Positions 57,791 to 61,325 of a stretch of DNA of 64,000 bases are shown here, one piece after another. The position numbers were made by a program, and so were the translations under genes. The notes under the pieces are model-generated. The model was given only the letters and a program-made list of their open reading frames with translations, was not told where the DNA came from and ran no database searches. The DNA is taken from NCBI RefSeq assembly GCF_010731875.1, contig NZ_AP022595.1, forward strand, positions 2,480,001 to 2,544,000, read 5' to 3'. The first letter of the stretch is position 1. The number at the start of each line of letters is the position of its first letter. This DNA is from Mycolicibacterium sarraceniae. GTDB taxonomy: Bacteria > Actinomycetota > Actinomycetes > Mycobacteriales > Mycobacteriaceae.

Positions 57791-57969
57791 ACCGGCGGCG
57801 CCCGGCGACCGGCCCACGGTGGCGGTGTTGCGGTCGCCGCAGCCCACCGATGCCGTGCCGCCGCTTGCGCTGGCCGTGCTGTTGTTCGTCGCAACCGCGA
57901 AGTTGAGGCCGGGATCGGAGGTTGCCGTCGCCGTGCCGGACTGAATCAGGCTGTGGCCGTTGAACGCCT
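57790..57969 (-). pseudogene. Fragment of a repetitive mycobacterial exported protein
   Basis: Leftward translation reads AFNGHSLIQSGTATATSDPG then LNFAVATNNSTASASGGTAS. This is typical of low-complexity Thr/Ala/Gly/Asn-rich exported mycobacterial proteins. The upstream end is cut by the transposon at 57970 and the downstream end runs into the methyltransferase remnant. Confidence 0.4.
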
Positions 57970-57984
57970 GTTGACCGTCGCTGG
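57970..57984. repeat. Left terminal inverted repeat
   Basis: TGTTGACCGTCGCTG, identical to the reverse complement of 61284-61298; preceded by the target duplication AACGCC. Confidence 0.93.
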
Positions 57985-58164
57985 GAACGACGACCACGGG
58001 GTGGGCCTTCGTCGTTGAGCGTGCCGATGTGGTCGTTGGTGTGACCGGGGTTTGATCTTGGTGGTCTGCACCGTCAGTGTGTCGAGGAACTGATGGTGCG
58101 CGGCACCCCGCTGAAGTCTTGGCCGGCTTGGCGGGGTGCCGCGCTGTAGTGCTCGGAGGCACTG

Positions 58165-58785
58165 ATGGTGACCGTAGAGGTCGATCTTGTTCGCGTCGAG
58201 TCCCGGTTGGCGGCTGGGGAGCTGTCGTGTCCGTCGTGCCCGGACGGGGTGCTGGCCCGGTGGGGTTTCGGGCGGTCGCGGCGGGTGGTCGGGCTGGAGG
58301 GTCCGGTCCGGCCTCGCCGGTCGCGGTGCCGGGGGTGTGCGGTGACTCATGTGTTGTTGCCGGTGTCGTTGTTGCTGCGCAGGGCGTATGCCGCGGAGCT
58401 GGTATGGGCGGTGTTGCAGGCCCGGGCGGCCGGTGTCGGGCATCGGCGGATCGCCGCGGCGGCGGGTATCCCGGCGTGCACGGTCCGGCGCTGGTTGCGG
58501 GTGATCGGTCGGCGGGTCGAGGCGGTGCGCCAGTGGTTCATCGGGGTCGCGGTGACCGCGGGGGTGGAGGTGTCGATACCTCCGGCGACCGGCACAGCTG
58601 TCGGGGATGTTCTGGCTGCGGTGGGCGCGGCGAGGGCGGCGATGGTGTCCCGGTTCGGGCCGGGACGGCTGGTCGGCGCGGTGACGGCGGTTTCAGTGGC
58701 GGTGGCGTGCAGCGGTGCCCGGCTGCTCGCGCCGGAGTGGCCGCCGGTGTCGGGGTGGGTGGGTGCAACACCAGTTGCCCTCTGA
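58165..58785 (+). CDS. Transposon-encoded zinc-ribbon/HTH protein (DUF6431-like)
   Basis: 206 residues. Two CxxC pairs (Cys22/Cys25 in SCPSCPDG and Cys55/Cys58 in RCRGCAVTH) form a probable zinc ribbon; a helix-turn-helix follows (GVGHRRIAAAAGIPACTVRRWLRVIG, about residues 91-115). The C-terminal half is Ala/Val-rich. GGAGG lies five bases before ATG 58165. It is the first gene of the element and resembles DUF6431 proteins that accompany actinobacterial DDE transposases. A role as transposase accessory or target-recognition factor is inference. Confidence 0.7.
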   Translation: MVTVEVDLVRVESRLAAGELSCPSCPDGVLARWGFGRSRRVVGLEGPVRPRRSRCRGCAVTHVLLPVSLLLRRAYAAELVWAVLQARAAGVGHRRIAAAAGIPACTVRRWLRVIGRRVEAVRQWFIGVAVTAGVEVSIPPATGTAVGDVLAAVGAARAAMVSRFGPGRLVGAVTAVSVAVACSGARLLAPEWPPVSGWVGATPVAL

Positions 58786-58876
58786 TGCGCGGTGGGGTCG
58801 ATGGGCCATCGTCGCGGGGATGACTGCCCTGGCAACGGGTTTGGGCGGCATCGCCAGCGGTGAAGGAGTCAGTGCG

Positions 58877-60342
58877 GTGTTGGGTGAGGATGAGAAGCGC
58901 CGGGCGCGGGCCCAGGCGGTGGGGTTGTTCCGCTACCAGTTGATCTGCCCGGCGTTGGATCAGGGCCTGTCGACGAAGGCCCGGGGCCGGCTGGTCCGCC
59001 AGATCGCCTCCGGTGAGCACACCGACCCGTTCGGGACCCCGGTGCGGTATTCCCGGGACACCCTGGATCGGTGGATCCGCCGGTATCGGGCCGGCGGGTT
59101 CGTCGAGTTGGTGCCCAGCCCCCGGACGTGTGTGCCGCGCACCGATACCGCAGTGTTGGAGATGGCCGCGGCCCTCAAGCGGGAGAACCCGGCCCGGACC
59201 GCCGCGCAGGTGGGCAGGATCCTGCGCACCGCGACCGGGTGGGCGCCCTCGGAATCGACCCTGCTGCGGCTGTTCCACCGCCTGGAGCTGATCGGCCCGG
59301 CCGCCGGGGATGCCCCGGTGGTGTTCGGCCGGTTCGAAGCCGCCAACCCCAACGACCGGTGGACCGGGGACGCCCTGCACGGCCCGCGGATCGGCGGGAG
59401 GAAAACCTATCTGTTCGCCTTCCTCGATGATCATTCCCGGCTGGTCTGCGGCTACCGTTTCGGCTTCGCCGAGGACGCCGTCCGGTTGGGTGCCGCGCTG
59501 CAACCCGCACTGGCCGCCCGCGGGGTCCCGGCCAGCGTCTATGTCGATAACGGGTCGGCCTTCGTCGATGCCTGGCTGCTGCGGGCGTGCGCGAAACTCG
59601 GCGTGCGCCTGGTCCATTCCACCCCGCACCGCCCCCAGGGCAGAGGCAAGATCGAACGGTTCTTCCGCACCGTGCGTGAGCAGTTCCTGGTCGAGATCGT
59701 CGATACCACCGCCGAACAGCTCGCCGCTACCGGGGTTGATCACCGCACCGCGCTGCTGGAACTGAACCGGCTGTTCACCGCGTGGGTCGAAACCGAGTAC
59801 CACCGCCGCACCCACACCGAGACCGGCCACGCCCCGCTGGACCGCTGGGAGCAAGGCTGGACCCGGCTCGGCCGCGGCCCGGCGGTACCGACATCCGCGG
59901 ATCTGACCGAGGCGTTCCTGTGGTCGGAGCACCGCACCGTCACCAAAACGGCCACGGTGTCGTTGCACGGCAACACCTTTCAAGTCGATACGGCCCTGAT
60001 CGGGCGGCGGGTGGAGTTGGTGTTCTCACCCTTCGACCTGGAAACCATCGAAGTCCGCTACCGCGAGGTCCGCTACGGCCGGGCCGTGCCGCACATCATC
60101 ACCCGCCATACCCACCCCAAAGCCCGACCCGAAACACCCGAACCAGCCCCGGCGGCGACCGGGATCGACTACCTGGCGCTGACCGCCCAGACCCACCACG
60201 AGCAGATCCGCGCCGATCACCGCATCGGATACAACGCCCTGTTCGCCACCCCACCACCGCGCGTACCGACGGCCAGATCCCCGGACAACTCAGCATCGAC
60301 GACATCGCCAGCCTTGACGACCAGGATGGGGTGTCGGCGTGA
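58877..60342 (+). pseudogene. DDE transposase (IS481/Mu-like), frameshifted near the C-terminus
   Basis: GTG 58877 has GAAGGAG eight bases upstream. N-terminal HTH domains (about 1-135), then an rve catalytic core with Asp165 (RWTGDALHG), Asp224 (VYVDNGSAF) and Glu260 (GRGKIERFF), exactly DD(35)E, then a Mu-type C-terminal beta-barrel (SLHGNTFQVDTALIGRRVEL). Near 60268 one base appears missing: the expected tail DGQIPGQLSIDDIASLDDQD is in another frame, ending at 60342 where it overlaps the ATPase start (GTGA). The catalytic part is intact; the tail probably contacts the ATPase. Confidence 0.85.
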
Positions 60343-61150
60343 GTATCGAACGGCTGCAACAGTATTACGGCTTCACCCGGATGCCCTTCGGCCGCGCTCT
60401 GGCCCCCGGGATGCTGCACCGCCACCCCGGCCACAGCGAAGCCGTCGCCCGGATCTCCTGGTGTGTGGACCAGCATGCGATCGGGGTCATCACCGGGAGG
60501 TCGGTGCCGGTAAGACCGTCGCGATCCGGGCCGCGACCGCCGCGCTCGATCCGGCCCGCCACGTCATCATCTACCTGCCCAACCCCTCGGTCGGGGTCCG
60601 CGGCATGCTGCACCACATCGTCACCGCGTTGGGGCGGGTGCCCAGTTTCTACACCGCCACCCTGGCCCCAGGCCGCCGAGGCCCTGGCCGCTGAACACGC
60701 CGAACGCGGCCGAACCCCGTCGTGGTCATCGACGAAGCCCACCTGCTCGACAACACCCAAATGGAAGCGATCCGCATGCTCACCAACCACGACATGGACT
60801 CCGGGTCACCCTTCGCCGCCCTGCTCGTCGGGCAACCCACCCTGCGGCATCGCCTGCGTCTGGGCGTGCTGGCCGCACTCGATCAGCGCATCGCGATGCG
60901 CTACGCGATCGCCGGCATGGCCCCCGCCGATACCGCCGACTACATCGGCCACCACGCCACGATCGCCGGCCGCACCGACACCCTGTTCTCCGACGACGCG
61001 ATCACCCTGATCCACAACGCCGCCCGGGGCTACCCCCGGGCGGTCAACAACCTCGCCGTGCACGCACTGACCGCGGCGTTCGCCGCGAAAGCCGCGATCG
61101 TCGATGAGAAAGCCGCCCGGATCGCGGTCACTGAAACAGGCCACGACTGA
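60339..61150 (+). pseudogene. Transposition AAA ATPase (ExeA/TniB/TnsC-like) with three frameshifts
   Basis: Opens VSIERLQQYYGFTRMPFGRA, the usual start of ExeA-like ATPases. The Walker A VGAGKT (about 60500) and Walker B VVIDEAHLLDN (about 60722) are present but in different frames. Apparent indels: a missing G near 60495, an extra C near 60668, a missing base near 60717, each in a short homopolymer. The C-terminal half (LLVGQPTLRHRLRLGVLAAL to ETGHD) is continuous. Restored length would be about 270 residues. Confidence 0.82.
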
Positions 61151-61200
61151 ATCACCGACCATGCGACGTCACCGCACCGAGGACGCCGTCACCATGCAGA

Positions 61201-61235
61201 CGAAGGCCCTGCCCGCTACGCGGACAGGGCCTTCG
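61201..61235 (+). terminator. Hairpin at the right end of the transposon
   Basis: CGAAGGCCCTG (61201-61211) and CAGGGCCTTCG (61225-61235) form an 11-bp stem after the ATPase gene; no T-run. Confidence 0.6.
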
Positions 61236-61238
61236 CTA

Positions 61239-61284
61239 CATCAACACCATCGGCATCCACGATGACGCCATCAACTGCATCCAC
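61239..61284. repeat. Direct repeats in the transposon right end (possible transposase-binding sites)
   Basis: CATCAAC (61239, 61269) followed by GCATCCAC (61253, 61277) occurs twice just inside the right TIR. Tn7/Mu-like transposases bind such repeated end sites. Confidence 0.5.
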
Positions 61285-61298
61285 AGCGACGGTCAACA
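61284..61298. repeat. Right terminal inverted repeat
   Basis: CAGCGACGGTCAACA, exact inverse of 57970-57984; followed by the target duplication AACGCC. Confidence 0.93.
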
Positions 61299-61325
61299 AA
61301 CGCCTACGACAACGACCTGCTCGGC

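Follow-up and report, generated by a model that had tools for sequence, protein, structure and literature searches.

Among the described systems closest to the element considered here, phage Mu has TG/CA tips and insertion sequences of the IS481 family are known to carry one gene only. TGT/ACA tips are named for IS481 in the part of PMC11406308 that was available. According to PMC11208146, the compact IS21 pairs a transposase (IstA) with a dedicated AAA protein, IstB, and the latter, in common with TnsC and MuB, is indispensable if transposition by the partner transposase is to be stimulated. The present element lies in a stretch of 64,000 nucleotides of Mycolicibacterium sarraceniae DNA (contig NZ_AP022595.1, positions 2,480,001 to 2,544,000), which is referred to as the window and supplies all coordinates given without another source. 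On the evidence of sequence comparison it is probably a small autonomous transposon without cargo, encoding a transposase and an ATPase that pair in the manner of MuA and MuB, together with an accessory protein that binds DNA, and one lineage of a widespread three-gene family. No description of this family was found in the open literature; ISfinder may catalogue it.

The element occupies 3330 bp (57969-61298, forward strand) between terminal inverted repeats TGTTGACCGTCGCTG (57969-57983, forward strand, with the TG tip) and CAGCGACGGTCAACA (61284-61298, reverse strand, with the CA tip), whose arms are complementary over 15/15 bp (100%) around a spacer of 3300 nt. The hexamer AACGCC directly abuts both tips (57963-57968 and 61299-61304, unstranded). 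When the element was used to search the same genome, a single contig of 4.83 Mb, 12 places were found, including five near-identical full copies, the window copy among them, at unrelated sites. Their direct repeats, in locus orientation, were AACGCC, ATCAGC, CTTGC, ACCGG and CTAGGG, that is 6 or 5 bp. Since all five full copies have these ends, and each is flanked by a direct repeat of its own, the boundaries in the window are not due to chance, and the element is real, mobile and well bounded. The original prediction, made from the sequence alone, had described an exactly delimited three-gene DDE transposon with perfect 15-bp inverted ends, TG...CA tips and identical AACGCC flanks; ends, duplications and recurring copies all support it, and the case in which no other copy would share these ends is disposed of. 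Its right boundary, 61298, was correct and its left one, 57970, fell one base late. The other places in the genome were a copy without the first ~630 bases (L006), a copy 77% identical and internally deleted to 1446 bp (L007) with its other part (L010), and the solo fragments L008, L009, L011 and L012. The internally deleted copy (L007 1501-2946; G000:C1 2206767 onwards) still has its two ends, a gene 1 that is open and the N-terminal part of the transposase, and has ATAGA on both sides, the right one off by one base. A lone 20-odd-base left-end-like sequence (L004 430-459) is preceded by ACTGGC, the same hexamer that follows the right end of the truncated copy (L006 4188-4208), and the two are perhaps halves of one rearranged insertion.

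A wider survey of 85 loci for paired ends with a direct repeat of at least 5 bp was positive at 40, representing 38 distinct insertions. These elements measure 3313-3395 bp, so that none carries cargo. The products observed were simple insertions with the duplication on both sides, and the duplication was of 5 bp in 18 insertions, 6 bp in 16, 7 bp in two, 8 bp in one and 9 bp in one. A constant 6-bp duplication, which had been put forward for checking against the flanks, was therefore rejected in favour of one of mostly 5-6 bp in the relatives. The same check for a target preference revealed no fixed site among the 38 insertions and instead a weak palindromic preference, roughly A-CCNGG-T at the 5-bp sites (n=18), with 2.41 bits of information against 0.58 +- 0.21 at random flank positions (0/2000 as high). 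It was weaker at the 6-bp sites (6/2000 random as high), of which 15 of 16 were counted, L082 being omitted for its short flank. Flanks of 200 bp from the 38 insertions did not resemble one another, nor did any resemble the element except at L122 (G378:C1 3448400-3456900), where a same-orientation insertion with an 8-bp duplication lies at position 240 of an identical copy. L122 also supplies an empty site, as its flanks map to element positions 240 and 233 and overlap by the 8-bp repeat; since the insertion is into an identical copy, self-protection is not strict. For the window insertion no empty site was found: the left flank matched the relative L212 to 2 bases from the junction and the right flank matched in 0/14 loci.

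Inside the ends a 20-bp pattern of the type CGTC-N8-TG.CGA recurs at fixed places in 19 elements (non-redundant at 90% over the ends, a site being called at 8/9 or more of the specified bases). On the left it stands at +8 (57976-57995, forward strand; 16/19 elements) and, 34 bp further in, at +42 (58010-58029, forward strand; 19/19), and on the right at -8 (61272-61291, reverse strand; 16/19, the window copy being among the three that fall short) and, 24 bp away, at -32 (61248-61267, reverse strand; 18/19). What matters in this evidence is that the places are fixed and that the spacing is unequal, 34 bp on the left versus 24 bp on the right. By their sequence the sites are probable transposase binding sites; arrays of ~20-bp repeats are described at the ends of Tn7, Tn5090, Tn5053 and Tn552 in the part of PMC8649781 that was available.

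All three rightward genes of the original prediction are present between the ends, although the third is broken in the window copy. Gene 2 (58877-60342, forward strand; start uncertain, frame open from 58715) encodes a DD(35)E transposase with helix-turn-helix (HTH), rve (65.4 bits) and Mu C-terminal (30.6 bits) domains, the last bearing out the Mu-type barrel claimed for it; near the C-terminus the frame of the window copy departs from that of the family. The catalytic triad reported as Asp165, Asp224 and Glu260 corresponds to D219, D278 and E314 when numbered from the earlier start at 58715, each present in 24/24 alignment rows; 35 residues separate D278 from E314. Against solved structures the transposase profile matched best TnsB of a CRISPR-associated Tn7-like element (E 1e-23, positions 46-381 of 444) and then IS21 IstA, while comparison of profiles gave E 3e-39 with IS481 and E 3e-20 with TniA/TnsB. 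In a tree of 24 rows the 12 three-gene transposases fell on one side of a branch (89/89) with seven IS481 rows adjoining, a moderate support, and grouped with IS481 (93/95) apart from four TniA/TnsB rows (100/100). As judged from this tree the transposase is beside IS481 and not inside it, as a separate sister lineage. What was called a Tn7/IS481 hybrid thus keeps the TnsB/MuA domain order and the place beside IS481, and loses the fusion.

Gene 3 (60339-61150, forward strand) encodes an AAA ATPase of MuB/TnsC-like type, in two frames in the window copy; open 271-aa versions were found in L014, L021 and the own-genome copy L005. The L014 protein matched AAA_22 at 82 bits. A profile of the ATPase found MuB as best solved structure (E 3.5e-9, positions 33-269 of 271), followed by a short Midasin match (20-82, E 4e-5), VchTnsC (4.5e-4) and ShTnsC (7.3e-4), which upholds the claim of a TnsC-like helper; a single-sequence query against the solved structures gave nothing meaningful. 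Neither Pfam TniB (PF05621), which matched two reference TniB/TnsC proteins, nor the IstB family was found among the matches of four family ATPases at E 0.01, and profile comparison with the two reference proteins (probability 84.8%) indicated distant AAA kinship. The ATPase would, from these similarities, be a MuB-like target factor forming an ATP-dependent filament on target DNA.

Gene 1 (58165-58785, forward strand) encodes a DUF6431-like protein of 206 aa, assigned from profile matches and a predicted model. The model (mean pLDDT 85) comprises a zinc ribbon, an HTH and a helical tail, and four cysteines are invariant in 149 rows, in agreement with the zinc-ribbon and HTH protein first described. 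Scores against DUF6431 (PF20020) were 23.9 bits for the window protein and 39.4 for the Thermobacillus homologue, the Pfam gathering score being 26.6, and some of the listed close homologues carry PF20020. A median dN/dS of 0.355 among 13 relatives (12-13 of the 14 elements given were used) indicates purifying selection. The further proposal that this protein takes the place of TniQ/TnsD was not sustained. Pfam TniQ (PF06527) gave no match to gene 1 at E 0.1, while matching elsewhere in the same genome; comparison of the gene 1 profile with four TniQ proteins gave probabilities of 2.6-7.8% over 24-38 columns, a short overlap that we read as the HTH near the C-terminal end of TniQ; and there is the lack of a fixed target.

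Further information on gene 1 comes from genome G646, in which three elements (L146, L168 and L169), at separate insertion sites and with their own duplications, carry a diverged block at ~240-1200 comprising gene 1 and the transposase N-terminus. Identity over the block is 74-92% per 120-base step, whereas the left end is 98% and the rest of the element 97-100% identical; a further copy in the same genome (L145) is without the block. The cassette was exchanged as a unit, and transposition then gave the three insertions. This mosaic is the best hint linking gene 1 to the transposase N-terminus.

Upstream of gene 1 an exact inverted repeat of 7-14 bp (7 bp being the minimum length searched) lies at ~130-200 in 19/19 elements, and the letters of its stem vary on both arms between subfamilies. 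A consensus fold of 18 elements, L163 being omitted, has two hairpins, in which 8/20 pairs differ at both bases in at least one sequence; the covariation term is small. In the window these are hairpin A (58098-58144, forward strand; arms 58098-58111 and 58131-58144) and hairpin B (58147-58164, forward strand), which encloses the probable ribosome-binding site, and the structure extends over the start of gene 1; the leader folds at -53.1 kcal/mol (z -5.1, 0/200 shuffles as low). By analogy with IS10 and IS50, hairpin B may block translation of transcripts entering from outside, the alternative being a dyad operator. Behind the operon a further inverted-repeat pair (61201-61235, forward strand) forms a probable terminator hairpin, and close-set inverted repeats near the right end are found in 16/19 elements.

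Of the genomes of the genus, 51/396 had a transposase matching at E 1e-100 or better, and such a match was present, at E 1e-90, in five genomes from 2/85 genera in a sample of 397 genomes of the order, while gene 1 matches at E 0.001, many of them weak, occurred in 27/296 genomes of the phylum. At E 1e-30, 53/72,556 plasmid records had a transposase match, including those of Rhodococcus, Streptomyces, Mycobacterium, Geobacillus and Cupriavidus. Phage records gave 0/50,697 at E 1e-10, and at the one viral-contig locus (L226) convincing ends were not found. The gene order, with the zinc-ribbon/HTH protein first, the DD(35)E transposase second and the AAA ATPase last, is found again in distant Actinomycetota, Bacillota and Pseudomonadota (L177, L178, L179, L180, L181, L199, L203, L201, L202 and L200) and is kept in Cupriavidus, Pandoraea and Thermobacillus. 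Gene 1 of L200, L201, L177, L178, L203 and L180 was recognised, at 50-173 bits, by a profile built without it.

Ends were sought in 14 of the distant loci, and ends with a repeat were found in four: L200 from a plasmid of Thermobacillus composti (17/20 inverted repeat, 6-bp repeat GCAACT, 3209 bp apart), L177 (14/20, CCCCT, 3076 bp), L199 from Rhodococcus jostii RHA1 (a 3342-bp element, GCCGGT) and L163, already among the 38 insertions. At L201 an 18/20 inverted repeat is accompanied by a direct repeat of only 4 bp, L202 has a doubtful end pair, and the other eight gave no convincing ends. The combined end scores of L199, L200, L201 and L177 each exceeded 40/40 flank shuffles, by narrow margins at L177 (19 vs 18) and L199 (21 vs 19), where 12 and 8 of the 40 shuffles respectively did equally well on the inverted repeat alone. 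Because these ends beat their flank shuffles, gene 1 lies inside the element ends clearly in Actinomycetota and Bacillota, and probably in Pseudomonadota. Several relatives differ from this layout. A transposase 60-64% identical, open over 482-486 aa, is found in L148-L155, L187 and L188 with near-equal scores in eight genomes of the genus; an adjoining gene 1 was not detected, the ATPase match is short, and in L187 an IS481-like gene follows. L026 (1411-3716) is a two-gene relative, a 476-aa transposase beside TniA/TnsB in the tree (93/95) and then a 367-aa AAA_22 protein; the gene 1 profile gave no match at this locus. The Pseudomonadota loci L201 (5658-5855) and L202 (5600-5824) have a fourth small open reading frame (65-74 aa) after the ATPase, without a Pfam match.

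The element has features in common with several described systems. It resembles IS481 in its transposase, the closest lineage in the tree, and in its TGT/ACA tips, but is set apart by the Mu C-terminal domain, by two additional genes and by a pair of sites at each end. With Mu it shares the MuB-like ATPase, the barrel and the tips; the element, however, is of 3.3 kb with three genes only. Like the Tn7-like and Tn5053-like elements (TnsB/TnsC/TniQ and TniA/TniB/TniQ) it has a DDE transposase with TnsB as best solved match, an AAA helper for which TnsC follows MuB and the short Midasin match, and several sites per end; unlike them it has three genes only, no cargo and no TniQ domain found, its transposase lies outside the TniA/TnsB rows, and its ATPase has no TniB Pfam match. 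It shares with IS21 compactness and the pairing of transposase and AAA protein, with IstA among the solved matches, whereas the IS21 model gave 40.9 bits against a cut-off of 160, the ATPase is of AAA_22 type and there is a third gene. Tn552 has a transposase (p480) and a 271-residue ATPase, proteins of similar size, and a 6-7 bp duplication; it also carries resolvase and resistance genes, which the present element lacks. The domain scans made found neither a resolvase nor a TnsA-like gene among the three genes that fill the element.

This anatomy agrees with transposition of the MuA/MuB type, and a mechanism can be proposed on this basis. The ends, the duplications, the recurring end sites, the gene order, the homologies and the selection on gene 1 are observed; each biochemical step that follows is inferred. 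The transposase would bind two 20-bp sites at each end and pair the unequally spaced ends; with its DD(35)E site it would then cut these and join them to the target at positions separated by 5-6 bp. Like MuB or TnsC, the AAA protein would assemble with ATP on target DNA and recruit or activate the transposase, an action that could yield dispersed insertions with a weak palindromic preference. Gene 1 would act on the DNA of the element itself, in concert with the transposase N-terminal DNA-binding part, in assembly or regulation rather than in site-specific target selection; for this role, an accessory DNA-binding protein acting with the transposase N-terminus, we put the chances at about even.

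Two simpler accounts of the locus seem very unlikely. The window copy and its sisters might be inactive pseudogenes, a decaying relic, as the frames of the five own copies break at different places and the window ATPase is broken; in the window copy as assembled gene 1 is open and the transposase is open across the catalytic and barrel domains. Comparison of the five copies, however, gave 4 substitution columns against 30 indel columns of 3342, and because of this pattern we infer a recent spread with uncorrected assembly indels, which probably also account for the break in the window ATPase; in addition 23/38 bounded copies have all three genes open across most of the family profile. The element might equally be simply an IS481-family insertion sequence that acquired two neighbours, the IS481 model being the best NCBIfam match of the transposase. 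Yet the scores, 168 bits in the window, 167 in L020 and 199 in L201, stay below the cut-off of 224, which 7/10 comparators pass, the three-gene transposases keep to their own side of a branch beside IS481, and all three genes lie inside the ends, which makes this account just as improbable as the relic.

For gene 1 there are two alternatives to an accessory role, each unlikely though less so than the foregoing. It may be a target selector, a non-TniQ counterpart of TnsD/TniQ whose zinc ribbon and HTH bind the target and pass it to the AAA protein: a separate DNA-binding protein is kept with the AAA/transposase pair across three phyla, it evolves faster than both other genes, and Tn7-like elements use a third part of this kind (PMC11406308, in the part available). 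The mutually dissimilar flanks and the want of a fixed site speak against selection of a target, as does a profile similarity to TniQ that is limited to the short HTH stretch; no TniQ chain was present among the 50 structure matches listed for the gene 1 model, which may point the same way. An operon repressor that binds close to the leader dyad and keeps copy number down, without taking part in the reaction, would suit an HTH protein encoded first in its operon, with a conserved dyad just upstream of its start, and one retained in the 1446-bp internally deleted copy. But the two arms of the dyad, separated by ~19 nt, also fold into strong RNA hairpins across the start, so that their conservation is explained without a repressor, and the G646 mosaic with its diverged gene 1 still spread while its left end remained almost unchanged; we hold this role to be as doubtful as that of selector.

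A number of observations weigh against the picture of an autonomous three-gene transposon with an accessory protein acting at its own DNA. As assembled, the window copy can encode no intact ATPase. Thirty-five of the 85 loci gave no end pair, another four (L023, L086, L100 and L141) lay at contig ends, and in six (L106, L123, L137, L164, L171 and L175) the best end pair had no repeat of 5 bp or more. The 19 elements that yielded the end-site motif also served for counting it; deeper within them are another 61 matches (3.2 per element, versus 1.2 over the whole element in shuffles), and four matches near the ends are out of register. Gene 1 evolves fastest of the three genes, which would also fit a target-choosing part, and the G646 mosaic represents one recombination event, whose breakpoints may be accidental.

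The same genome also holds a TniA/TniB-type element (L209 1881-10085; G000:C1 about 1464881-1473085) that encodes two TniQ proteins, of 895 and 799 aa, as well as a TniB of 374 aa and a TniA of 711 aa. An adjoining gene (L209 10960-13641) looks, when its sequence is read by eye, like an intein-bearing DnaB.

What is understood of AAA-controlled transposition comes from Mu, Tn7, Tn5053 and IS21, to which this family would add a compact lineage beside IS481 with its own accessory protein. The family also gives a context to DUF6431, for which the literature found amounts to one table row in one paper, itself available in part. The layout of its natural ends is known and many genomes hold open copies, of which the Thermobacillus one may suit biochemistry. 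Should gene 1 prove to steer insertion, integration could be directed by a small protein in place of TniQ. In a bolder and rather unlikely version, the DUF6431-type protein, unrelated to TniQ, would be a new adaptor that loads or positions the AAA protein, a third part of the machine in three phyla; TniQ would then be one of several solutions linking DNA recognition to AAA-controlled transposition.

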